Shown here one piece after another: positions 9,181 through 60,028 of a DNA stretch of 60,877 nucleotides (positions are counted from its first letter, which is position 1; every line of letters starts with the position of its first letter). The DNA comes from a virus, in the IMG/VR virus record IMGVR_UViG_3300025030_000039, positions 1-60,877 of that record, one strand, 5' to 3'. The notes below the pieces were generated by a model. It saw only the letters and a program-made list of their open reading frames with translations, had not been told where the DNA came from and made no database searches. A program made the translations under genes and the position numbers.

Positions 9181-10383
9181 TTAAAATAATGAATTATCAC
9201 TAATAATATCTTTAATATCAAAATTATCTTCTTCATCATCCTTAAAGAAATTAAATTGAGACGGAACAAATACATTATTAACATGTTCAGTATCTTTTAA
9301 TATAGATTCTTTTGTTACAAAATTATTAATATCTTGTTGTAATTTTGAAAATACTTCTATATCTTTAAACATTTGTTGTTGAATTTGTTGTGGTATAGCT
9401 CTACTATGTAGCATAATTAACATAGTATTATTTTCAATATTATTTAAAATATCTTGATAAGTCATTTTAGTTGCATTAAGTTCATGTATTATTATTTTAG
9501 CAACTTCTTCTCTATATGATTTATCAAATAAATAAATACTTTTAAAATCTTTATGTTTTTCAGTTAATACATCCCATACTCTATCAGCTTTTTTATCACT
9601 AACTCCGTATCTTCTTCCATTTTTTTCATACCAATATACAGATTTTATATTATCACCAGCATCACCACTTAATATTTTTTTAAATATAAATTCATTAGAA
9701 TTAACTGTAATTGTTTGTAATTGATGTTTTTTAACTAAATCTTTAAGTAAAGTTTTTGTTATATTATCTCCATGAATAGTTTGATTCATTTCAAATATAT
9801 TTGTAATTTCGTTACTTATATCAGATTTAAGCCAATCTATAAATCCAGGATATCCAACTATTTTTTTACTCATTCTATTTTTGGTATAAAATATAGTATG
9901 AGCTTTAGTTGATTCATTATAATCAACTAATTGCATTAAATCTCCGTCACCTGAAACTATTATAACATTATCTCCCTCTAAATTCAAAGCTTTAGACCAA
10001 GCAAAAACTAAATCATCACCTTCAGCACCAGGAACTCTGTGTATAATCATTCCCTTATTTTTTAATATAGTTGAAAATTCATCTATACAATTATAGAAAC
10101 TAGACCAATCGATATTATCTGATGGAACTCTATTTCCTTTATATGCTTGTTCAGGATAAAAATCCTTTCTCCATGACGATGAATCAATTACAAAAACTAT
10201 CCTTTTAAGAATAGGTTTAAACCTTCTAATTTCAGCTGCGAAATCTAATGCTAACTTACCAATAAAAGTACTTTGATCATTTTTAGATTCTAATAATTTT
10301 CCTTTACTTTCATTAGGCAGAACATAAAGCGTCTTATGAAAAAAATAGTTGCCATCGAAAATAATTGTATGTTTTTTACTCAT
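9181..10383 (-). CDS. rnh: RNase H / 5'-3' exonuclease (FEN1-like, T4 rnh-like)
   Basis: 400 residues with the acidic motifs of the FEN/PIN family: IIFDGNYFF at about 7, GAEGDDLVFAW near 118, SGDGDLMQ near 139 and SGDAGDNI near 235. A helical C-terminal domain follows. In T4 this enzyme removes RNA primers and flaps from lagging-strand fragments. The protein ends ISDNSLF; the polymerase fragment at 51280-52221 also ends SSSLF, and T4 gp43 ends with an SLFDMF-type clamp-binding tail, so a clamp-binding role is likely. It overlaps the small gene at 10376 by 8 bases, suggesting coupled translation. Confidence 0.85.
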   Translation of the reverse strand: MSKKHTIIFDGNYFFHKTLYVLPNESKGKLLESKNDQSTFIGKLALDFAAEIRRFKPILKRIVFVIDSSSWRKDFYPEQAYKGNRVPSDNIDWSSFYNCIDEFSTILKNKGMIIHRVPGAEGDDLVFAWSKALNLEGDNVIIVSGDGDLMQLVDYNESTKAHTIFYTKNRMSKKIVGYPGFIDWLKSDISNEITNIFEMNQTIHGDNITKTLLKDLVKKHQLQTITVNSNEFIFKKILSGDAGDNIKSVYWYEKNGRRYGVSDKKADRVWDVLTEKHKDFKSIYLFDKSYREEVAKIIIHELNATKMTYQDILNNIENNTMLIMLHSRAIPQQIQQQMFKDIEVFSKLQQDINNFVTKESILKDTEHVNNVFVPSQFNFFKDDEEDNFDIKDIISDNSLF

Positions 10384-10600
10384 TAGTATATTTTATTAAT
10401 AGTACTTTATTTTCTTTTAAGATATTAGTACCATTTTGTATATAGATTTTTTCTTTATTTTCATCTATTACAGCTAGTTTTATAGAAGTAATATCTATTT
10501 CAGTATAACCTATAATTCCATGTTCATCATTAATTATTTCATATGCTAATCCTTGAGTAGCTATATTTTTTAATTTTTCTTTTGATAATTTTATTTCCAT
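10376..10600 (-). CDS. Small hypothetical protein upstream of RNase H
   Basis: 74 residues (MEIKLSKEKLKNIATQ...LLIKYTNE), not recognised. It has a short basic N-terminal helix followed by alternating beta strands. It overlaps the start of the RNase H gene by 8 bases and follows the clamp-loader C-terminal piece by about 30 bases, so it is part of the same unit. Confidence 0.5.
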   Translation of the reverse strand: MEIKLSKEKLKNIATQGLAYEIINDEHGIIGYTEIDITSIKLAVIDENKEKIYIQNGTNILKENKVLLIKYTNE

Positions 10601-27521: not shown

Positions 27522-29174
27522 TTACACTAAACTTGGAAGGTTTGCACCTGTTTCTACTTTTAAAGTAATGTAGTTTAATTCTGGATTATGTCCAGCATCA
27601 ACTAATGCAAATCTGGATTTAATAGCGATTTTTGGAGCCATTGTACCTTCGGCAATAGTTTGTACTGATTCAGCCATTAAATAAGGCATGAATACTAAAC
27701 CTGTTGAATTTCCATCTCCTTTTCTACCTATTGAAACTCTAGTGTCATTCCATGTCATGTTAGGGTCAACATAGATGTTAACGCCTGCAATTGAACCTAC
27801 TGGATATAAAGAACCAGCTGATTGATTGATTGTGTTTGACATTGGATAAGTAATGAAACCTGCAACATCTTGAAGAGCAGTAGCAACTTGACCGTTTGTA
27901 ACTGTAAAGTTAGCAGCACCTCTTCTACCTCTGATTGCTATAACGTTACCAGCACCTAGAATTTTAGATAAAATTCTTCTTTGTACTGAACCTTGAGTGT
28001 CACCACCAAAAGTAGTTGTAGCAGCAGTATTCATTAAAGCAACAGGGCTACCGTTTATACCATCTCCTAAATCAATATTAGTAGCAGTTGTTCCATAGTT
28101 TAAGTTAAGGTTTACACCTGCTCTTGTATGGTTAGTTGCTCCCATTCTGAAAATTCTTTCAAGAATAAGTTTGTTAATTGATTGAGTTAACTCATTGATA
28201 AGAACTGATTCAACTTGAGCAACAGCATCAATACCATATTGTTTAAGGTCTTGTACTTGTTCTCTAGTAACTGCTGCAGCAACTTGATATGTAGCAGCTT
28301 CTACTGATTTGTTGAAAAGAGTTAAGTTCATTAAGTTATCAACAGTTGATTCACCTTCTTCTCTTAAATAAGGTTCATTTCTGTTAGTAATTCCATTACC
28401 TAATCTTAATGATCTACCAGCAAATCCTGGAATATGGTCTTCTAATGCTTTTACTAATTCTGCATTTGATGTAAATTCAGCAACTTCATTAGCACCAGTT
28501 GATGCAGAAAATAATGAACCTGTTGAAACTGCAGTATTAATAGTTACAGCACCTGTAGCACCAATATTTCTAGCTGTACCATCAGCATCAGCTGCAACAA
28601 CTTTAAATATTGAATAACCATCAATTCTTGAATCTCCTAAGTAAGTAAATAAATAAAGATTATCACTAGCACCTGCACCAGTTTTTACATAGTAAGTTGT
28701 ACCTTCTGTAAAAGAAGTTAAACCACCTGATGTAACGAAAGAAACGTCTACTTTAATTAAAAGAGGAGCTTCTTTTGAATCTAATTTACCACCGCCATAA
28801 GTAAAATCTAAGTAAGTTAAAAGTCCTAGTGGACCTGGCATTGGAACTACTGGAACTAAATCTAGTCCGATTGTTTGAGCAGCAACTTGCATAGCAAGAG
28901 GAAGCAAACTGTAAGGCTTATCGCCTGATCCTTTTTGTTGTCCTGAGAAACTTGTTGTGTAACCTGGATCACCTGGGAATGAAATAGCTCCCATACCATT
29001 TACGTTCATATCTGGATTAAGATGAACTGTATTATACGCATTTTCGTATAATTCATGGTAATGAGCATATTTAGACATCCACGCTAATTTAGATTTATTG
29101 TCGATTCCTGTTGAACCTTCAATAATTGGCGCCCATGTTCTCATAATTTCTGCTTCGTTAATTAATTTAATCAT
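27522..29174 (-). CDS. 23: Major capsid protein (T4 gp23-like)
   Basis: 550 residues. The N-terminus IMRTWAPIIEGSTGI matches the T4 gp23 start (NKWKPLLEG) and includes I-I-E, a likely prohead-protease site. Later come the P-domain helix VTREQVQDLKQYGIDAV at 302-318, IYVDPNMTWNDTR near 465 and EGTMAPKIAIKSRFALVDAG near 510, as in HK97-fold capsids of T4 type. An insertion rich in Gly, Thr and Ser at 140-245 is probably a surface-exposed domain. It follows the portal and protease-scaffold genes in T4 order, with a late-type promoter box upstream and a strong terminator downstream. Fragments of this protein recur at 49459, 50089 and 54692. Confidence 0.9.
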   Translation of the reverse strand: MIKLINEAEIMRTWAPIIEGSTGIDNKSKLAWMSKYAHYHELYENAYNTVHLNPDMNVNGMGAISFPGDPGYTTSFSGQQKGSGDKPYSLLPLAMQVAAQTIGLDLVPVVPMPGPLGLLTYLDFTYGGGKLDSKEAPLLIKVDVSFVTSGGLTSFTEGTTYYVKTGAGASDNLYLFTYLGDSRIDGYSIFKVVAADADGTARNIGATGAVTINTAVSTGSLFSASTGANEVAEFTSNAELVKALEDHIPGFAGRSLRLGNGITNRNEPYLREEGESTVDNLMNLTLFNKSVEAATYQVAAAVTREQVQDLKQYGIDAVAQVESVLINELTQSINKLILERIFRMGATNHTRAGVNLNLNYGTTATNIDLGDGINGSPVALMNTAATTTFGGDTQGSVQRRILSKILGAGNVIAIRGRRGAANFTVTNGQVATALQDVAGFITYPMSNTINQSAGSLYPVGSIAGVNIYVDPNMTWNDTRVSIGRKGDGNSTGLVFMPYLMAESVQTIAEGTMAPKIAIKSRFALVDAGHNPELNYITLKVETGANLPSLV

Positions 29175-31160: not shown

Positions 31161-32843
31161 TTAATATCCAGAAGTTGTACCACCTACACCCATAGCTAAT
31201 CCACCACCAGTATCTTCAGGATTAACTTTTTGAAATTTTGCTTTCGGTTCACCGAAAGCAATTTTTTTAGCATCTTTTTTATCATATCCTTCTTTTACTA
31301 ATTTTTTAATTTCTTTATAAATTTCGTTAGTCTTTAAATCATCAGCATCAAAATTACCAAATCTTTGTATTAAGAAATCTAAATCAAAAAATGGTACCTC
31401 TGTCATATCTGGAGCCATTTCAGTTAATCCATCTTTTAATGTTCCTATAAATTCAATTCTTTTTTGAGTTAACTCCTGTTGTTTCATTTCCTCAAATACA
31501 TTTTCTTTATTAAATCTAATAGAGGTATTTACTTTAAATGATTCATCATCTTCTAATTCTGGATGACTTAATACCATTTGTATATAAAGAGGTTTAACTA
31601 ATATTTCTTGAAATATAGATCTTAATCGTGTGATAAATTTAGAAAATCTTATTTCATCTCTCATCATACCTTCAGCGGCCATTTCATATCCAGCTGGTGA
31701 ATCTTGATCAAATCTACTAAAGGGTATTTTTGAAACCATTTTTAATTTATCTGCAAACCATTTTAATGCATCTGTATCCGATAATTCTGGACCTTCTCCA
31801 CCTATTGTATCTATTTCAGGTGTATCACCATCTTTTTGAGGTAGCCAATATTCTTTATTAAATGGTAACATTGGTTTACCATTTATTTGAAGTTCACCTG
31901 ATTGATAATCAAAGTCAATTACTTCTCTATAATTATGCATAAGTTGGGCAAGTGACTGTTTAGCTCTTGTTTTTGATTTACCTCCTACTGGAATAATAAA
32001 TTTAGTTTTAAACGAAGAATTTGTTACTGCCCATATAATTCTAGTATGTTCCATTATTCTAAGTAAATTAAAAGATCTAACTAATCTTTCAACGTATGAT
32101 ACTCTTGATACTGAATTAACAGACGAAAAAGAAATATAAATAACTTGTGAGTCATATAATAATCTCTCTTTTGCACCAGTACCTTTATTCTGTATATAAA
32201 TCTTTTTATTTGTTTTTTTATCTAATCCTGGAACTAATGAGATTGGATCAAGTTCTTTAAATCCTATAATATTTTTTTGAGGTTTATCATATATTATTTC
32301 AAATGCTAAAAATCCATCTATTAACCATTTTCTAAAATAATTCCAAGCTGATTGACCATCGTGAAAATTAAAATATTGATATATCTTTTTATAATTTAAT
32401 TCTAAACTTTGTCTTAATTTATCATCTATTTCTCCACTTAAAAATGCAGGATAAGCCATTAAATTTTTAGTATCATATACTATTGCTTCATCTGTTAAAA
32501 TATCTAATATATCTTCAATCTCATCTTGAAGAGCAAACATTCTTAAATCATTTCTTTTTTGTTTATATTTTTTATCAAAAAAGGCAACATTCTTTTTCAT
32601 ACTTGTATCTGTTAAAGATAAAGCTGCAAAGGTATACCACATATCATCATGATCTGGTGCATTAGGATTATATTTATATCCAAATTGATCCTCTGCTATA
32701 CCAACAGCTCTAGAATTTCTGATAACCATGTCGTCATATTTCATCCCAATTCTACTCAATTTTTTAATTTGAGCAGAAACCCAATTATCAGTAGTTAAAG
32801 GTCCTCTTAATTGATTATTTTGTGCATCTGTAAAACCTGCCAT
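31161..32843 (-). CDS. 20: Portal protein (T4 gp20-like)
   Basis: 560 residues, the usual length of T4-type portals. Characteristic segments are DTKNLMAYPAFLSG, GFLAFEIIYDKPQKNIIGFK, ELDPISLVPG, TKFIIPVGGKSKTRAKQ at about 280-296 and PFSRFDQDSPAGYEM near 374-388. The portal forms the dodecamer at the packaging vertex. The protease-scaffold and capsid genes follow it. The segment 277-390 is closely similar to the small protein at 58408-58836. The Gly-rich tail GGGLAMGVGGTTSGY is unusual but does not affect the assignment. Confidence 0.92.
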   Translation of the reverse strand: MAGFTDAQNNQLRGPLTTDNWVSAQIKKLSRIGMKYDDMVIRNSRAVGIAEDQFGYKYNPNAPDHDDMWYTFAALSLTDTSMKKNVAFFDKKYKQKRNDLRMFALQDEIEDILDILTDEAIVYDTKNLMAYPAFLSGEIDDKLRQSLELNYKKIYQYFNFHDGQSAWNYFRKWLIDGFLAFEIIYDKPQKNIIGFKELDPISLVPGLDKKTNKKIYIQNKGTGAKERLLYDSQVIYISFSSVNSVSRVSYVERLVRSFNLLRIMEHTRIIWAVTNSSFKTKFIIPVGGKSKTRAKQSLAQLMHNYREVIDFDYQSGELQINGKPMLPFNKEYWLPQKDGDTPEIDTIGGEGPELSDTDALKWFADKLKMVSKIPFSRFDQDSPAGYEMAAEGMMRDEIRFSKFITRLRSIFQEILVKPLYIQMVLSHPELEDDESFKVNTSIRFNKENVFEEMKQQELTQKRIEFIGTLKDGLTEMAPDMTEVPFFDLDFLIQRFGNFDADDLKTNEIYKEIKKLVKEGYDKKDAKKIAFGEPKAKFQKVNPEDTGGGLAMGVGGTTSGY

Positions 32844-49458: not shown

Positions 49459-50088
49459 TTATTTTTTTTCTATTAATTTTAAAACAACCATTATATCAGG
49501 TTGTTTTTCTTTTGTTCTTACTAATTCTATTTGTGATATTTTTGAGTCATTAATAACTTCTTCTAAAGTTCTTTGATGTTTAAAAGGTTTTCTTTTCTCA
49601 ATTGTTTTTTCAACTAACTTTAAATAATCACCTTCTCTAATTAATATAATTTTTTCTTCATTACTTTTTTCATATTTAAATTCAAAATTTTTGAGATGAA
49701 TATAATGCTCTAATAAATCACATAATTTACTTCCTAATTTTCCACTAAATATTATTTTATTAGCATTACCTATTTTTGATTTAGCATAAACCATATTTGA
49801 TGCTGCTAATATTTTTGTAACTACTTTAGATATACAGTCATCAGTAATAAAACCTGCTTCATCATATTCTATTTCTAATTCAAATGAATCTAATATATTT
49901 GTTTCTACTTTAGTATTTGTGATATCATTAGTTTCATCTTCATCAATATAATCAACTAAATTATCTATAATAATTTCAGCTGCTTTCATTGAAGCAAAAC
50001 TACCATCTTCATGTTCAATTTCTAAAGGAGATTCACATAATAAAGTCCATCCATTTTTATTTAATAATTTAAATTTAATTTTGTCCAT
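49459..50088 (-). CDS. Hypothetical protein, possible capsid-derived segment
   Basis: 209 residues. Residues about 85-125 (VVTKILAASNMVYAKSKIG, then ANKIIFSGKLGSKLCDLL) can be aligned to the major capsid protein segment SKILGAGNVIAIRGRRGAAN...NGQVATALQDVAGF and to KKSEIIVNGAVGSQLQDMAG of the neighbour at 50089. The rest is not recognised. It is directly adjacent to the capsid-fusion gene (one-base spacing) and to UvsX. Origin as a further capsid fragment is plausible but weaker than for 50089 and 54692. Confidence 0.45.
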   Translation of the reverse strand: MDKIKFKLLNKNGWTLLCESPLEIEHEDGSFASMKAAEIIIDNLVDYIDEDETNDITNTKVETNILDSFELEIEYDEAGFITDDCISKVVTKILAASNMVYAKSKIGNANKIIFSGKLGSKLCDLLEHYIHLKNFEFKYEKSNEEKIILIREGDYLKLVEKTIEKRKPFKHQRTLEEVINDSKISQIELVRTKEKQPDIMVVLKLIEKK

Positions 50089-51030
50089 TTAAACCATTTT
50101 TTCTAAATTTGTTAATTTAATTACTTGACAATTTTTTTCTATATCAAATAATGCAATCTTTAATATACATGGACTCCATTTTGGCGTCATAGTACCTTCA
50201 ACAGTAAATGAATCTTTATCATTTTCTATTAAATCGACTACAGCAATCACATCTTTAATTACAATCATTCTTGTATCATCCCATCTCATGTTAGGATCAA
50301 CATATAAATTATTATCTCCTAATTTTCCAATTTGATATAAAGCACCTGTTGAATTCAAGTTAGTTTTAATTTGTGACAATTCAAATCCTGCCATATCTTG
50401 TAATTGAGATCCTACTGCACCATTTACTATAATTTCTGATTTTTTAATATCTGAAAGTAATCCTTTTAATTGAAGATTTTTATTAGTTAAAGATATATTT
50501 TCATCAAACATAATTTCATATCTTTCTGCTTTTTCTGTTATTGTTGAAAGAATCGTTTTAATAGCGGAATGTACATACTCATTTAAACATACATTTAATA
50601 ACATCGCAATAACATCTATTCCAAATTGAGTTAATGATGATATTTGATCACGCGTAACAGCAACAGATATATGTAATGCTTCAAAATTTAAATTAGTATA
50701 TTTCTCATGATTTAAATCTATAAAATTAACGGCATTTAATATAGGATCACATTTAAACTGTTCTATAATATTATTATGCAAATCTTTAAACTTAGATTCC
50801 ATTTCTTTATTATTTTTATCTTTATATTGCATTAATTTAACTAATAAATCCTCATATAATTCTGAATTACTATTTTTGATTAAATCTGTATATATTTCTA
50901 ATGCTTTTAAAGCATTAATATCTTTATCTAATCTTAATACAAAATAATCTGCATTTTTATCTATACCAGATCCATCTGCTTTTTGTACTATATACTTTTG
51001 ATAATATCCTTTTTTTTCTATTTTATTCAT
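50089..51030 (-). CDS. Capsid-protein paralogue fused to a small N-terminal domain
   Basis: 313 residues. Residues 1-66 belong to a common small phage/bacterial domain (KYIVQKADGSG, DYFVLRLDKDINALKALEIY). Residues 118-160 match the major capsid protein P-domain helix: VAVTRDQISSLTQFGIDVIA against AAVTREQVQDLKQYGIDAVA. Residues 205-296 match its C-terminal part: LQDMAGF, LYVDPNMRWDDTRM against IYVDPNMTWNDTRV, and VEGTMTPK against AEGTMAPK. The N-arm, E-loop and the inserted domain of the capsid are absent. It lies between polymerase and UvsX, not among head genes, and the frame is intact. Function unknown; see findings. Confidence 0.8.
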   Translation of the reverse strand: MNKIEKKGYYQKYIVQKADGSGIDKNADYFVLRLDKDINALKALEIYTDLIKNSNSELYEDLLVKLMQYKDKNNKEMESKFKDLHNNIIEQFKCDPILNAVNFIDLNHEKYTNLNFEALHISVAVTRDQISSLTQFGIDVIAMLLNVCLNEYVHSAIKTILSTITEKAERYEIMFDENISLTNKNLQLKGLLSDIKKSEIIVNGAVGSQLQDMAGFELSQIKTNLNSTGALYQIGKLGDNNLYVDPNMRWDDTRMIVIKDVIAVVDLIENDKDSFTVEGTMTPKWSPCILKIALFDIEKNCQVIKLTNLEKMV

Positions 51031-51279: not shown

Positions 51280-52221
51280 TTAAAACAAACTAGAGCTATA
51301 GATTAAATTTCTATCTAAAGTTTGTAATCCTATTGCTGCAATAACTCTATTTATTGGATCTATAATAGTTTTTTCAAACTGTAATTCATAATCCATAGGT
51401 GGAGCAAATTCATATGGATAAGATCCTGCTATATAAGAAAATATATTACATACTTTATCTGTAGTATAATAAATTTTAACTTTTTCTCCATCAGCTATTA
51501 AATTATATTTGTTTTTAAATTTAGAATTATATAATAAATAATTATGATAACCACTTCCTCTTACATGTAATGGACATCTTTTTTCTATTGTAAATTCTTT
51601 TCTATCATTTAGAATATATTTTTTATAATTATTAATACTTAAATTTTGTGAAATATGTTCTAAGTTTGCTAATTTAAACTGCTGTTTAATTTTTTTAAGA
51701 TATTTAACCATTTCACTTATTTTTACATCTTCTACAGAAAAAATATACTTTAATAACTCTTTTAATTTTTCTCTTGCAAATTGAGGTGTAGATGATTGTA
51801 TAATCTCAAATCCTTTAGATTTAATTTTTGTTAAACTTTCAAAACTTATATCAGGATCTTTCCATATTAAATCTTGCATATATTTTTTCTTAGCTAACCA
51901 TATAGCACTTTTAGCAATAGATTCTAACTCAAAATTTAAATAATTTTCAGTATTATTATTATCAGCATATTCTTGTAATATATTTTCAATATATTTTTTT
52001 AATCTTTTATTATAAATTTCTAATATAAAATCTTTTATTGTACCTGTCCAATTACATTTATCTAATACTTCACCAAATGCAAGGTAACAAGAATTATGTA
52101 CTAAAATATCATTAGCAATAAAAGTATGAGTATTATCATCAACTTCAATATCATAAACATATTCATCAAAAAATCCTATGCATTCGCAACTTTCTATATC
52201 TTCAAATTTATAATTATTCAT
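51280..52221 (-). CDS. 43: DNA polymerase gp43, C-terminal piece with C-terminal half of a split intein
   Basis: 313 residues. Residues 1-43 are the intein half, ending VDDNTHTFIANDILVHN. Ser44 starts the extein SCYLAFGEV, which continues polymerase motif C. Further on, KGFEIIQSSTPQFAREKLKE and KRCPLHVRGSGYHNYLLY match T4 gp43 (METQKSSTPKAVQKALKE, CPFHIRGILTYN). The end, LQFEKTIIDPINRVIAAIG...SSSLF, matches LLEKTFIKPLEGF...ASLFDMF, including the clamp-binding tail. The upstream half is at 53910-54680. The nuclease overlaps its start by 8 bases. Confidence 0.9.
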   Translation of the reverse strand: MNNYKFEDIESCECIGFFDEYVYDIEVDDNTHTFIANDILVHNSCYLAFGEVLDKCNWTGTIKDFILEIYNKRLKKYIENILQEYADNNNTENYLNFELESIAKSAIWLAKKKYMQDLIWKDPDISFESLTKIKSKGFEIIQSSTPQFAREKLKELLKYIFSVEDVKISEMVKYLKKIKQQFKLANLEHISQNLSINNYKKYILNDRKEFTIEKRCPLHVRGSGYHNYLLYNSKFKNKYNLIADGEKVKIYYTTDKVCNIFSYIAGSYPYEFAPPMDYELQFEKTIIDPINRVIAAIGLQTLDRNLIYSSSLF

Positions 52222-53917
52222 TCCAACTAAATTTTAAATTACCACTATTCCATATTCTATTATATCCCTTATCATGCATTATTTCTACCTCTGTTAAATT
52301 TGGATCTGCTCCTTCTTTAACTAAAACATCTTTTCTATATTTAAATCTATTTTCTTTAATTTCAAAATTAGACCAATAATAATTCGGTTTAACTAAATAA
52401 TCAAAACTAAATCCTAATTTTATATATAAATTATCTTGTTCATCTGATGTCCAATCACAATCTGCATAACTAATCACTCGATTTGGTTTATACTCTTTAA
52501 TAAAATATTTAAATAAACGACTTGCTCCACCTATAACTGTTGTATCCAATTTATTAACAAATCTTAAAAGCTCATATTCTCCTTCAATAGCCTTTTGTCC
52601 TAAATTCTTCCTTAATTTTCCAAAGGTCATTAATGATACCAATTCATCATTATAATATAAACCTAATTTGACGGCTGCATTTACATTACCCTGTAAATGA
52701 TTATTATTTAAAAAAAAACTATTTTCTTTTGATAATACTTCTTTAATTATGCATTTACGAGCATATATTCTATTATATGTTAAATTTAATAATTGTTTTA
52801 GTCTAGATTTAATTATATCTTGTTTATTTATCCAATCATCTTCCCATATATGTATAAGTTTAACTCCTTTTTTCTTTGCTAATAATGTTTTGTTTATATG
52901 ATATTCTTTATTTTTATGTAATTCTGAATGCCAATATAATCCATTAAATTCAATACCAATTTTATTATTAGGCAAATAAATATCAATTTCTAATGGTGTA
53001 ATAATATATCTAATATTTTCTTCTATTTTTATATTATAATCATTAAGAAATTTTATTATTTCTATTTCTCTATTACTTCTAGATTTATCTATAGGATAAC
53101 ATAATAAGCAAGGATTTAAATTAGCTTTTATTCTATGATATAAATGATTTATTCTTATATTATAGTTATTATTGCATTTATTACATTTTATTTTAACATT
53201 TCCATTTATTAATTCTATGATATTAATATTATATAAATTTTTTATTCTTATTAAATTTTTATCATTTATTTTTTTTCTTATATTATGTTGTATTATATTA
53301 TTTTGCATTGCGCATACTACATCATATCTTTCTAAATTTGTTTTTTTAATCTTATCTTGTACTTCTTTATTTTTAGCAGGATTATCAACTCCATATCGTT
53401 CTAAATTAGTTTCTTTAATTTTTTCTTTTATTTCTTTTCTTTGTAAACTATGTTCAACTCCATATTTTTTTAAATTTGTTTCTTTAATTTTTTCTTTAAT
53501 ATTATTATTTTGAAAACTATATTCTACTCCGTATTTTTTAAAATTTGTATCTTTAAGTTTATTTTTTATGATTTTACATTTTAATGGACTATCTACTCCA
53601 TATCTTTCTAAGCATGTTTTTTTATAATTTTTAATAGATAATATTTTTGAACATTCTTTTGAACAAGTTTTATGATATCCTGTTTTAAATTTATAAAAAG
53701 ATAGTACTTCCTTTTTACAAATTTCACACTTTGGAAATGATGAAATTTTATTAATGTAATTAAATAATTTATTAGAAAATAATGTTATATTATTATTAAT
53801 ATTAAAATCATAATTATTTATTTCATCATATATTAATTTATAATGATTTTTAATATAATGTTCTGTTAAAAATAAAGTAGATTTAGTATTTTTAATATCG
53901 TTTATAAAATTATTCAT
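52214..53917 (-). CDS. Homing endonuclease in the gap of the fractured DNA polymerase gene
   Basis: 567 residues. An N-terminal CEIC...C zinc finger is followed by four to five ERYGV repeats (LERYGVDSPLKCKIIKN, KKYGVEHSLQRKEIKE), a middle EDxHD/Vsr-like nuclease region (PLEIDIYLPNNKIGIEFNGL, WHSE, LIHIWEDDW) and the same C-terminal module as 25622 and 34048. It overlaps both polymerase pieces by 8 bases. It is the arrangement described for fractured genes with split inteins. The nuclease probably homes into the polymerase motif C site. Confidence 0.88.
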   Translation of the reverse strand: MNNFINDIKNTKSTLFLTEHYIKNHYKLIYDEINNYDFNINNNITLFSNKLFNYINKISSFPKCEICKKEVLSFYKFKTGYHKTCSKECSKILSIKNYKKTCLERYGVDSPLKCKIIKNKLKDTNFKKYGVEYSFQNNNIKEKIKETNLKKYGVEHSLQRKEIKEKIKETNLERYGVDNPAKNKEVQDKIKKTNLERYDVVCAMQNNIIQHNIRKKINDKNLIRIKNLYNINIIELINGNVKIKCNKCNNNYNIRINHLYHRIKANLNPCLLCYPIDKSRSNREIEIIKFLNDYNIKIEENIRYIITPLEIDIYLPNNKIGIEFNGLYWHSELHKNKEYHINKTLLAKKKGVKLIHIWEDDWINKQDIIKSRLKQLLNLTYNRIYARKCIIKEVLSKENSFFLNNNHLQGNVNAAVKLGLYYNDELVSLMTFGKLRKNLGQKAIEGEYELLRFVNKLDTTVIGGASRLFKYFIKEYKPNRVISYADCDWTSDEQDNLYIKLGFSFDYLVKPNYYWSNFEIKENRFKYRKDVLVKEGADPNLTEVEIMHDKGYNRIWNSGNLKFSWNE

Positions 53918-54680
53918 TATAAATTGATAATATTTTATCTGTTAGTATATTAATATCTCTTGCTTTAATAATTTTTTTATCACCTTTTCTAAAAACTATT
54001 AATGAATGATCACCTGTAACATCTATTTCTTTACCAGATTTAGTTTTTAATTTCCATTTATCTTTTTTAACTTTATGTCTAATTATTCTTTTTACATTAG
54101 CATAATAAAGTTCAGAGTCATTAAAGTTAAGTATTTTATCATTTGTTAAAACTGATTCGTGACCAGTCATTGTTTCTCCACCAGAACCATTTTTAATATT
54201 TATATTATACCATTCTTCTACTGAAAATTCACCTTTATCAGTTTTTATTTTAGCTTCTTTTTGTATCGAGTCCGTATCAATATATACGCCTATAGGTTTT
54301 AAAACTTTACCTGTTACTTTTATTCCCATACTTGCATGTAATTCAGTATCAGTATGCCATGTTTCATGAAAATACTTATTTATTAATGCTTCAGTATATA
54401 ATATAGCATCCTGACCCTGTAATGTAATTGTTTCGGCTAAATTTATATTATAGAAATAAAAATGTTGGTTACCAAATGCACCATATATGGAATTTAAAGT
54501 TAATTTAACGGATTGTTCCATATTATAATATCTTTTAGCTAAGGATTCTTTTTCTGCTAAAAGTTTTTCTAATTCTTCTGTTGATAAAGATTCGAAATTA
54601 TCTGTTGTTTCGTATTCAAATAACACTTTCTCATCACCATTACTAGAATTCATTACTGAATCTCCGGCGTTTCCTTGCAT
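53910..54680 (-). CDS. 43: DNA polymerase gp43, middle piece with N-terminal half of a split intein
   Basis: 256 residues. Residues 45-137 are the polymerase palm segment: motif B KLTLNSIYGAFGNQHFYFYN near 59-78 and motif C IDTD at 134-137. Ser138 begins the intein half (SIQKEAKIKTDKGEFSVEEW), with a block B-like TGDHSLIVF, ending at 256. The N-terminal exonuclease and motif A (DxxSLYP) are missing and are not found elsewhere in this window. So the polymerase is split at least three ways: an N-terminal part elsewhere, this piece, and 51280-52221. It starts MQGNAGDSVMN just after the capsid-like gene. Confidence 0.9.
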   Translation of the reverse strand: MQGNAGDSVMNSSNGDEKVLFEYETTDNFESLSTEELEKLLAEKESLAKRYYNMEQSVKLTLNSIYGAFGNQHFYFYNINLAETITLQGQDAILYTEALINKYFHETWHTDTELHASMGIKVTGKVLKPIGVYIDTDSIQKEAKIKTDKGEFSVEEWYNINIKNGSGGETMTGHESVLTNDKILNFNDSELYYANVKRIIRHKVKKDKWKLKTKSGKEIDVTGDHSLIVFRKGDKKIIKARDINILTDKILSIYNE

Positions 54681-54691
54681 AATTTTTAAAT

Positions 54692-55201
54692 TTATTTAAT
54701 TTTATAATTCATTTTAATTTGTACTAATGGTCTTAATGTTTTTTCTGCTATTACTGTAAATGATTCAATTAATAAATGTATCATTAAATCAAACTTATCA
54801 CTAATTTTTAAATTTGTTTTAATTTCGTCATTTATTCTATTTGCAGCTTCTTCTATTATAGAAAGTTCAATTTCTTTTGTTATGAGTCCTGTATTTATAG
54901 ATGTTGTTAATAAATCATTAGGTTTGAATGTTGCTGAAATAATTTCATCTCCTTTTTCTATTCTATTACCTATTATTTTTATTGTGACATTTTCTGGAAT
55001 ATTTAATTTGCTAAATAATAATAATGATAATGGAAGTAATGAATATTCTTTATCAGATAGATTATTATTTGTTCTTTCAATAAGAGTATGATGATGTGCA
55101 TATATACACATTGCTTCTTTTTTATTTACCTCAATATCACTAAAATTTGCATCAATTATTGGTGTCCAATTTTTAATAATTTGTTCTTTTGTTGCTTCCA
55201 T
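54692..55201 (-). CDS. Miniature capsid-protein paralogue
   Basis: 169 residues. Residues 7-66 match the capsid N-terminus: IIKNWTPIIDANFSDIE against IMRTWAPIIEGSTGID, CIYAHHHTLIERTNN against SKYAHYHELYENAYN and DKEYSLLPLSLLL against DKPYSLLPLAMQV. Residues 100-130 can be aligned with the P-domain helix. Residues 138-165 match the C-terminal part: LMIHLLIESFTVIAEKTLRP against FMPYLMAESVQTIAEGTMAP. Most of the core is deleted. The start overlaps the sliding clamp stop by one base, so translation is coupled to the clamp, and the polymerase follows. The frame is intact. Function unknown. Confidence 0.82.
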   Translation of the reverse strand: MEATKEQIIKNWTPIIDANFSDIEVNKKEAMCIYAHHHTLIERTNNNLSDKEYSLLPLSLLLFSKLNIPENVTIKIIGNRIEKGDEIISATFKPNDLLTTSINTGLITKEIELSIIEEAANRINDEIKTNLKISDKFDLMIHLLIESFTVIAEKTLRPLVQIKMNYKIK

Positions 55202-55965
55202 TATTCCTCCTCATCTCCATTCATGCATAATGCAATTATTAATAATGTATTAGTATCTTGTGATTTAAAGAAAATTTTATTTGTACATACAGTAACATCA
55301 TAACTTTCTTTATCTAAAAGAGGAAAATATTTTTTATAAACCATAACTTTTATTAAACTTTCATCTAATACTTCTACAGTCTCAGATAATATTGCATCAT
55401 AATTTTTTCCTTTAACTCGTAGTATATTATCTTCAATAGCAAATTTAAATGTTTCTACTTCTTTATCTAATTTAAAATATGAATTAATATTATCTATTTG
55501 TTTAACAGGTAAATCGAATTTAAATGTACCATTATCTGTACTAAATGCTCTTTTTATTTCATCTTTACTCATATCCATAAATGATAATGTAGGATCTGCA
55601 CAAAATAATTTTATTGTTAATTTATCATTAAAAATAACAAAATCGCTAGCTATGAATTCATCGCCCATTTGTTCATATACTATTTTACCTTTTATAGTAT
55701 CATCTCCAAAATACGATAATGCATCAATTATACGTGAAGCATTATAAAATGAAACTTTAATAGTATCTTTTATAACATCTTTTATTTCAAACATTTGTTC
55801 TAATGGTACACTAACTAATTTAACTGCGTCTTTTTGCGGAAAATATACTGTTGATGACACAGCCTTTGTATTTATTTTCATAAACACAAATTTATCTATT
55901 GCTAATAGCTTTTTAATAAAGCTTTGAAATTCATTAGCAATAACTTTATCTATTTTTAATTCCAT
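55201..55965 (-). CDS. 45: Sliding clamp (T4 gp45-like)
   Basis: 254 residues. Clamp-like duplicated alpha-beta domains: NEFQSFIKKLLAIDKFVFM at the start, then FCADPTLSFMDMSKDEIKRA corresponding to the DPS-type linker in gp45, and FDLPVKQIDNINSYFKL. In T4 gp45 is the processivity factor of the polymerase and an activator of late transcription through gp55. The first gene after an AACAAA-N12-CATATAAT promoter, followed by the mini-capsid paralogue and the polymerase pieces. Identification is by pattern and context. Confidence 0.7.
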   Translation of the reverse strand: MELKIDKVIANEFQSFIKKLLAIDKFVFMKINTKAVSSTVYFPQKDAVKLVSVPLEQMFEIKDVIKDTIKVSFYNASRIIDALSYFGDDTIKGKIVYEQMGDEFIASDFVIFNDKLTIKLFCADPTLSFMDMSKDEIKRAFSTDNGTFKFDLPVKQIDNINSYFKLDKEVETFKFAIEDNILRVKGKNYDAILSETVEVLDESLIKVMVYKKYFPLLDKESYDVTVCTNKIFFKSQDTNTLLIIALCMNGDEEE

Positions 55966-58407: not shown

Positions 58408-58836
58408 TTACCATATTATAGTTTTCATAAAATTATATGATAGTATCCAATTTTTCATATCTTCTAATGTACAGTGTTCTCTAGATGGCCCATAAGGTAT
58501 CATTCCACAATTAAATACCCAATAACCATTATCTGAATCCCATCTAAAATATGCATGATCATCCTTTACTTTTTCAGTATAAATCTGTAATATTTCTAAT
58601 TGTAATTTTAAAGCATTTTCTTTAGATTCAACAGGTATATTTGGATAAAATGTTTGTTTTGAAATATCGATATTTCTTAAAACTAAACCTTTATCAACAT
58701 TAAAATTAATATCTTCTTTATAAGAACTCATTAATTTATGCATAGATATTTTTGCTTCTTCTTTTGTTATATTACCAATAGGTATTACGAATTTCCTTCT
58801 TATTTGATTATAGCCTGTTATATTATAATTAATCAT
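58408..58836 (-). CDS. Small portal-protein paralogue
   Basis: 142 residues from the ATG at 58836 (an upstream in-frame ATG at 58977 runs inside the reductase gene and is unlikely). Residues 12-105 match portal 277-390: RRKFVIPIGNITKEEAKISM against KTKFIIPVGGKSKTRAKQSL, HKLMSSYKEDINFNVDKG against AQLMHNYREVIDFDYQSG, and FRWDSDNGYWV against FDQDSPAGYEM. The last 37 residues are different. It lacks the portal's clip, wing and crown. The frame is intact. It sits right after the ribonucleotide reductase. Function unknown. Confidence 0.78.
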   Translation of the reverse strand: MINYNITGYNQIRRKFVIPIGNITKEEAKISMHKLMSSYKEDINFNVDKGLVLRNIDISKQTFYPNIPVESKENALKLQLEILQIYTEKVKDDHAYFRWDSDNGYWVFNCGMIPYGPSREHCTLEDMKNWILSYNFMKTIIW

Positions 58837-58855
58837 ATTTATATTATATTTAAAT

Positions 58856-60028
58856 TTAACCTTGACACAGGGAAAATTCGCACGAATGACAATATGTACA
58901 ACCTTCCTTTTTATAAAGACCTGACGGATCTCCGCATAAAGGACATTTAGTCTCAGATAACTTTTCTTCTGCATCACCTTTTAAGTATTTAGATAATGTT
59001 CTAGAAATTGCTTTACTAAATGCTACTATAGTTCCTTCAGATTTATTTAATTGTTGAACAATGAATTTAATATCAGCACCATGTCTTAGACTAACAGATA
59101 TCATTCTAGTAAGAGCTTCTTCTTCATCTCTTTCGAATAATTCATTAACATTATCTAGTACTCCATTACCTGATATTTCTAAACTATAATGACCTCTTTT
59201 AACTTTTGTTAGAATAGCGTCTTTTATATTTTTAGATATACTTATATTTTTCTCTTTAAAAGCAAATACTTCATAAGGTTCATTATCCATTAGTCCTACA
59301 ATTACGACATAATCGTGTCCCTTTGCTGTAATATGATGTATATTACAAGGAAGAGATTTAGGTCTAATAGGAGCTTCAGTTTTAATTATTTTTTCTTTTT
59401 GTTTTTTATTGCTAACAAGTACTCCTGATCTTGAACCTTCTCTATAAACAGTTAATCCTTTACATCCTGATTTCCATCCCGTCTCATATACCTTAGATAC
59501 CATATCTTCAGTTGCATTTTCTGGCAGATTTGTCGTCGAACTTATAGAATGGTCTATCCACTGTTGAATTGCACCTTGCATTTTTACTTTTGCAACCCAA
59601 TCAATATCTGCAGATGATGCTTTATAATAAGGAGATTTTTTAATTACTTCATCTAATTGAGTTTCATTATATAATTTTACTTCTTCTATATTATAATTAT
59701 TAATTTTTAACCATTTTAAAAATTTAGGATGAAATACTAAATATGTTTCCCATGCATCACCTGAAAAATCAGTAAATGAAATATTAACTTCTTTATCGTT
59801 TGGATTTACTTTTCTATTTCTTTTATATACTGGAAGAAAAACAGGTTCAATTCCAGATGTAGTTTGTGTCATAAGGGAAACTGTATTATGAGATACTATT
59901 CCATTATCTAAAATATAATAATGAGTATCTTCTACCTCTATATCCATTGTATAATCAGTATCCGTAGTTTTTTCTAATATTTCTATTAACTCATATTGTA
60001 TATTTTCTAAATTAACTATTTCTTGCAT
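58856..60028 (-). CDS. nrdJ: Class II ribonucleotide reductase (NrdJ), C-terminal piece with C-terminal half of a split intein
   Basis: 390 residues. Residues 1-48 are the intein half (YTMDIEVEDTHYYILDNGIVSHN, split here: TMDIEVEDTHYY and ILDNGIVSHN). Thr49 starts the extein TVSLMTQTTSGIEPVFLPVY, the PSG-T catalytic loop of NrdJ. The rest carries TGWKSGCKGLTVYREGSRSG and a C-terminal Cys-rich tail CPLCGDPSG...CTYCHSCEFSLC used for re-reduction. The N-terminal reductase piece lies outside the window; the nuclease at 60016 fills the gap. The enzyme makes deoxynucleotides with adenosylcobalamin. Confidence 0.85.
   Translation of the reverse strand: MQEIVNLENIQYELIEILEKTTDTDYTMDIEVEDTHYYILDNGIVSHNTVSLMTQTTSGIEPVFLPVYKRNRKVNPNDKEVNISFTDFSGDAWETYLVFHPKFLKWLKINNYNIEEVKLYNETQLDEVIKKSPYYKASSADIDWVAKVKMQGAIQQWIDHSISSTTNLPENATEDMVSKVYETGWKSGCKGLTVYREGSRSGVLVSNKKQKEKIIKTEAPIRPKSLPCNIHHITAKGHDYVVIVGLMDNEPYEVFAFKEKNISISKNIKDAILTKVKRGHYSLEISGNGVLDNVNELFERDEEEALTRMISVSLRHGADIKFIVQQLNKSEGTIVAFSKAISRTLSKYLKGDAEEKLSETKCPLCGDPSGLYKKEGCTYCHSCEFSLCQG

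Follow-up and report, generated by a model that had tools for sequence, protein, structure and literature searches.

The locus analysed here raises the question of why a huge phage should carry, among its replication genes, a short open reading frame resembling a major capsid protein (MCP), and whether this frame is a gene in its own right. The window, meaning the whole stretch of DNA analysed (60,877 bases), represents bases 1-60877 of a virus record of 429,198 bases and holds both a T4-like head cluster (MCP, protease and portal) and a replication cluster. It is 100% identical over the 43 kb compared to LR756500.1, an uncultured phage of 462 kb, which was for this reason dropped as an independent sample for selection tests. 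The genes of the two clusters that concern us are the following:

27522-29174, minus strand: full-length MCP of the gp23 type (Pfam PF07068, E=8e-34)
31161-32843, minus strand: full-length portal protein of the gp20 type (PF07230, E=2.3e-70)
53910-54680, minus strand: piece of DNA polymerase B together with the N-terminal half of the intein, 11 bases beyond the end of p169
54692-55201, minus strand: p169, a domain-deleted MCP (prodomain/N-arm, spine helix and C-terminal strand)
55201-55965, minus strand: gene upstream of p169, a putative sliding clamp, whose stop overlaps the p169 start

The original prediction assigned a capsid origin to 54692-55201, and the similarity searches bore this out. 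When p169 was compared by phmmer with all ORFs of the window, the MCP at 27522-29174(-) ranked second after p169 itself (E=4.4e-6) and was the only other strong match, with collinear pieces pairing p169 residues 6-47, 47-62 and 139-166 with MCP residues 12-53, 86-101 and 499-526, respectively (numbering as in the tool output, offset by up to 4 residues). Against a profile of 82 MCPs, p169 reached E=6.7e-7 and 22.5 bits, a score that rules out chance similarity, since the maximum among 6000 shuffled sequences was 8.3 bits; the reversed sequence scored -2.4. Profile-profile comparison added the spine helix of the P-domain, in collinear position between the matches at the two ends, and MAFFT recovered this helix with and without the LR756501 relative described below. 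No similarity beyond chance to the phage's own MCP was detected at the nucleotide level, and p169 alone gave no match in the Pfam or PHROG libraries, where gp23 MCPs are represented by PF07068 and PHROG 138 / 28442. The AlphaFold2 model of p169 had a low pLDDT (58.8) and no significant fold match. The blocks shared with the MCP are located as follows:

55049-55186, minus strand: p169 residues 6-51, match to the MCP prodomain (MCP 12-53)
54810-54889, minus strand: p169 residues 105-131 (approximately), match to the MCP spine helix (helix at 105-130 in the weak AlphaFold2 model)
54695-54787, minus strand: p169 residues 139-169, match to the C-terminal P-domain strand (MCP 499-528)

Accordingly, p169 retains the prodomain, which we presume to be cleavable and count within its N-arm, the start of the N-arm proper (SLLPL), the spine helix and the C-terminal P-domain strand. 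Missing from the alignments are the prodomain-to-shell linker of about 35 residues, the E-loop and insertion domain, the A domain and the last 26 residues or so, the domain names being inferred from the alignment after the general HK97/gp23 layout. The predicted deletion of the core was therefore found, and the predicted content of N-arm plus C-terminal strand was correct for both parts but understated, as the spine helix is also kept; the linker is deleted. In comparison with gp23-family MCPs (PF07068, PHROG 138 / 28442), p169 has homologous blocks in the same order, with homology beyond chance, but is without most of the conserved core and so without the complete fold of E-loop, P domain and A domain. 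Taken together, these comparisons show, at the sequence level, that p169 is an intact gene and that it arose from a gp23-type MCP through the loss of domains.

The frame of p169 is indeed intact, as had been proposed, with an ATG start, 169 codons and zero internal stops. Of the two outcomes named beforehand as refuting the prediction, a lack of profile similarity and frameshifted copies in all close relatives, neither was encountered. A frame of 169 codons is open by chance at this base composition with P=1.3e-8, and codon use in p169 is that of the neighbouring genes (z=7.0). Codon use and openness show that p169 is under coding constraint; the gene has diverged to about 20-30% identity yet is open throughout. 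No close orthologues of p169 were found by pattern search in IMG/VR or GTDB genomes.

The supposed coupling of p169 to a sliding clamp held as far as the junction is concerned, since the upstream gene's stop and the p169 ATG have 1 base in common (TAATG), but the identity of the clamp was not confirmed: 55201-55965 gave no match in Pfam, PHROGs or PDB profile searches, and we take it to be a clamp from its position. In L095 and L096, whose contigs are the only two syntenic relatives found (polymerase 61-62% identical), DNA polymerase immediately follows the orthologue of this gene; between these two genes, p169, the intein, the endonuclease and the further MCP-like ORFs p313 and p209, introduced below, are all missing from both contigs. 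At 51280-54680 of the window, an intein splits DNA polymerase B; the intein halves belong to separate ORFs, which flank the gene for a homing endonuclease of 567 aa. In this AT-rich genome, a scan for late-promoter motifs gave no signal that could be used.

Relatives with the same deletion were found in LR756501, a phage of 735 kb that holds two full-length genes of the p169 type:

W03:276345-276899, minus strand: first LR756501 relative of p169, full-length, same deletion design
W03:565360-565893, plus strand: second LR756501 relative of p169, full-length, same deletion design

The three genes are mutual best matches, with 33, 33 and 56 bits among them, which is above the best score against any MCP for p169 (22.8 bits) and for the second LR756501 copy (22.6 bits). 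The first LR756501 copy scores higher against the MCPs of its own clade (72 bits) and is therefore the least changed of the three. It has in common with p169 the motifs WTPI(I/L)DA and MC(I/V)YA, the loss of 3 residues that yields SKLN, and an end directly after the last strand, characters that occur in no MCP of the alignment. Because of these shared characters and the bit scores, a single ancestral mini-gene behind p169 and the LR756501 copies is favoured. The layout of prodomain, LLP N-arm, spine helix and C-terminal strand, ending right after, was present in three full-length genes, and sequence comparison thus shows p169 to belong to a small family of P-domain mini-MCPs, of which at least three members, from two huge phages, are full-length. 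The LR756501 genes share the deletion architecture of p169 but are about 27% identical to it and do not adjoin the presumed clamp, and one carries an in-frame insert.

The parentage first proposed for p169, from the phage's own MCP, fared less well. In the tree, the minis stand together inside the LR756501-type MCP clade, with low support (UFBoot 41 for the three), and placement of p169 with its own MCP received a bp-RELL of 0.029 and an AU value of 0.09; the AU test rejects no alternative placement of the minis. Descent from the phage's own MCP is therefore disfavoured by the tree, not rejected; pairwise and clade-profile scores lean opposite to the tree (the clade-A MCP profile scores p169 above the clade-B profile).

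Besides p169, the window contains two further pieces of MCP:

50089-51030, minus strand: p313, second mini-MCP, with spine helix, A domain and C-terminal strand (the strand by eye); MCP profile E=1.1e-25
49459-50088, minus strand: p209, third mini-MCP, an A-domain piece; MCP profile E=6.4e-6, Pfam Gp23 E=0.095

In p313, an unrelated domain of about 80 aa precedes the MCP part, and a PDB search with its AlphaFold2 model hit capsid proteins of the HK97 fold (best E=3.5e-7), including T4 gp23 and gp24, although the alignment behind the model contained MCPs, which helps the model towards the HK97 fold. Both p169 and p313 hold the spine helix and C-terminal strand, which identifies them as separate paralogues and rules out a single gene split in two. 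Related huge phages also carry MCP pieces: a group of mini-MCPs of 232-263 residues (spine helix plus A domain) was present in about ten records of phages, in most cases at a distance of 5-10 kb from the MCP, and the prodomain region was found repeatedly in other mini ORFs. A competitor-clade origin for all minis was dropped, as p313 and most others resemble the MCP of their own lineage. The cultured Chryseobacterium phage MA9V-2 has one mini-MCP (L094 25810-26556; MA9V2_215), annotated as hypothetical and closest to its own MCP; in Lak-B1, PAU and pT24 only the MCP and portal were found, with no mini copies.

MCP segments also occur in other settings. In the same record as the window, a piece resembling the MCP A domain is fused to a domain that by eye resembles SIS (sugar-phosphate isomerase) (G000 392449-392592; L131 6628-7851), and the MCP linker is found in an ORF of 127 residues (G000 67827-68054; L130 6884-7264). 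This linker (NVNGMGxxxxPGxPG...GSGDxP) stands alone in other small proteins (L130 6884-7264, L096 1714-2604, L143-L147), often after a shared N-terminal domain, and might serve as a head-targeting or cleavage segment. In LR756501, an ORF that by eye is DNA-polymerase-like (L134 2701-4077) has an in-frame MCP segment (profile 89-115).

Pieces of other core genes were detected as well, including two portal fragments in the window:

58408-58977, minus strand: mini-portal ORF; portal profile 267-317, E=5.5e-10 (second search 7.4e-10), codon use weakly gene-like
10379-10600, minus strand: possible mini-portal ORF of 74 aa; portal profile 175-225, E=8.7e-5

LR756502 also has mini-portals, LR756501 has them at four or five sites, and the truncated copies in the fetched loci were of MCP, portal and homing endonucleases only. 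LR756501 itself holds fragments from every part of the MCP together with pieces of portal, terminase and sheath, some of them with internal stops; strict head-gene specificity was dropped on account of the terminase and sheath pieces.

Two short peptides recur in these genomes. DPYGEE, usually as LDPYGEE[D/N]WE, appears 27 times in 177 ORFs of LR756501.1 (L088, L129, L132-L136, L256), where shuffling gives an expectation of 0.00; 17 of the 27 lie within 30 residues of the C-terminus, and their DNA varies synonymously. It appears to be a dispersed protein tag. Additionally, an in-frame insert or C-terminal tag of about 25-40 residues (NRDRKIDSILEDxEF..., R(D/E)xKI(D/N)xIL) is found in several huge phages, in small ORFs that are otherwise unrelated and also inside mini-MCPs (L257 5740-6802, L127 15408-15878, L128 15774-16268, L259 2614-3039, L256 5331-5897).

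As to function, we tentatively favour, at somewhat below an even chance, that p169 modulates assembly, binding to scaffold or shell lattice while being unable to complete a capsomer. The prodomain and N-arm would let p169 dock on the scaffold or MCP lattice, and a protein without E-loop and A domain could neither build nor close a capsomer, so that shell growth would be held up or ended. If p169 is made with the replication genes, a timing that derives from gene position only, it would act before MCP is abundant. It might then keep the phage from assembling its own heads until MCP is in excess over it, or it might spoil those of a relative or satellite that infects the same cell. Between self-regulation and interference, the evidence favours neither. 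In support of a modulator are the collinear MCP homology in all retained blocks, the LR756501 relatives, the coding constraint, the coupled start and the recurring prodomain. There is also precedent in Ccm, a protein by which a satellite redirects the assembly of helper capsids and which is homologous to capsid proteins, its N-terminal domain being cleavable (PMC8569155), and in T4 the prohead protease removes 65 N-terminal residues from gp23, the shell co-assembling with an inner core (PMC9958956). The open-access literature searched contained no domain-deleted MCP with assembly-modulating activity and none in huge phages. Capsid interference cannot explain the whole phenomenon, because LR756501 has portal, terminase, sheath and polymerase-like ORF pieces, and the weak structure model of p169 also counts against a modulator. 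It is in our judgement doubtful that huge T4-like phages in general keep domain-deleted copies of head genes, some expressed early, as dominant-negative regulators or saboteurs in mixed infections, with p169 as the founding example.

Several other explanations have to be weighed against a modulator. The fragments of LR756501, decayed in part, and the homing endonucleases common in these genomes could indicate that p169 belongs to a functionless debris of partial head-gene copies, scattered by recombination and slowly decaying; this is quite improbable for a frame that has stayed open for 169 codons with normal codon use at so low an identity, and that has one architecture in three members; the conservation of a 232-263-aa mini-MCP in about ten records also speaks against debris. 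Exaptation of the MCP-derived, helical p169 for DNA replication or another non-capsid task would account for its translationally coupled place between presumed clamp and polymerase, and for its long branch and the loss of most of the fold. We regard it as unlikely, given that the same two neighbours are adjacent without p169 in two relatives and that in LR756501 the family members are surrounded by small accessory ORFs, with one member about 12 kb from a presumed clamp.

Two more readings are a virion passenger and a defence decoy. The prodomain may take p169 into the prohead core, where it would be packaged as a minor or internal protein and possibly carried to the next cell; p169 lacks the linker and its gene lies outside the head cluster, which makes such a passenger improbable despite the frequent prodomain of mini ORFs, the occurrence of the MCP linker alone in other proteins of these phages, and the short targeting sequences that localise T4 core proteins (PMC9958956). 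Very unlikely, finally, is a decoy that binds a host capsid-sensing defence without triggering it. MCPs do directly trigger bacterial immunity, as with CapRel (PMC9712102), and mini-portals and mini-terminases exist as well, but no sensor is known for this host and a fragment could equally trigger one.

Phage capsid-gene paralogues are otherwise known as whole-fold vertex proteins or as weapons of satellites, and p169 resembles each kind in part. Like T4 gp24, a paralogue of gp23, it is a divergent MCP paralogue of HK97-fold ancestry in the same type of phage lineage; in gp24 the fold is complete and pentamers of the protein occupy the vertices (PMC9958956), whereas p169, without E-loop and A domain, does not have the full HK97 fold. 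With Ccm of SaPIbov5, a cos-type SaPI, it shares descent from capsid proteins and an N-terminal prodomain. Ccm, a full-length satellite protein with the HK97 fold, assembles into pentamers and has its prodomain removed (PMC8569155), whereas p169 is phage-encoded, domain-deleted to 169 aa and missing the linker; Ccm alters the capsid assembly of another element, something that p169 might also do.

Overall, capsid genes that lack the capsomer-forming core, intact in huge phages and in one of them located in a replication operon, appear to be new with respect to the open-access literature searched. The cut-down head genes scattered through several giant phages hint at an unrecognised steering or blocking of head assembly, and mini-MCPs, mini-portals and shared peptide tags together suggest that a general process is at work in the largest genomes among phages. 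If p169 modulates assembly, it would provide a compact genetic handle on the timing of giant-head formation or on competition among giant phages.
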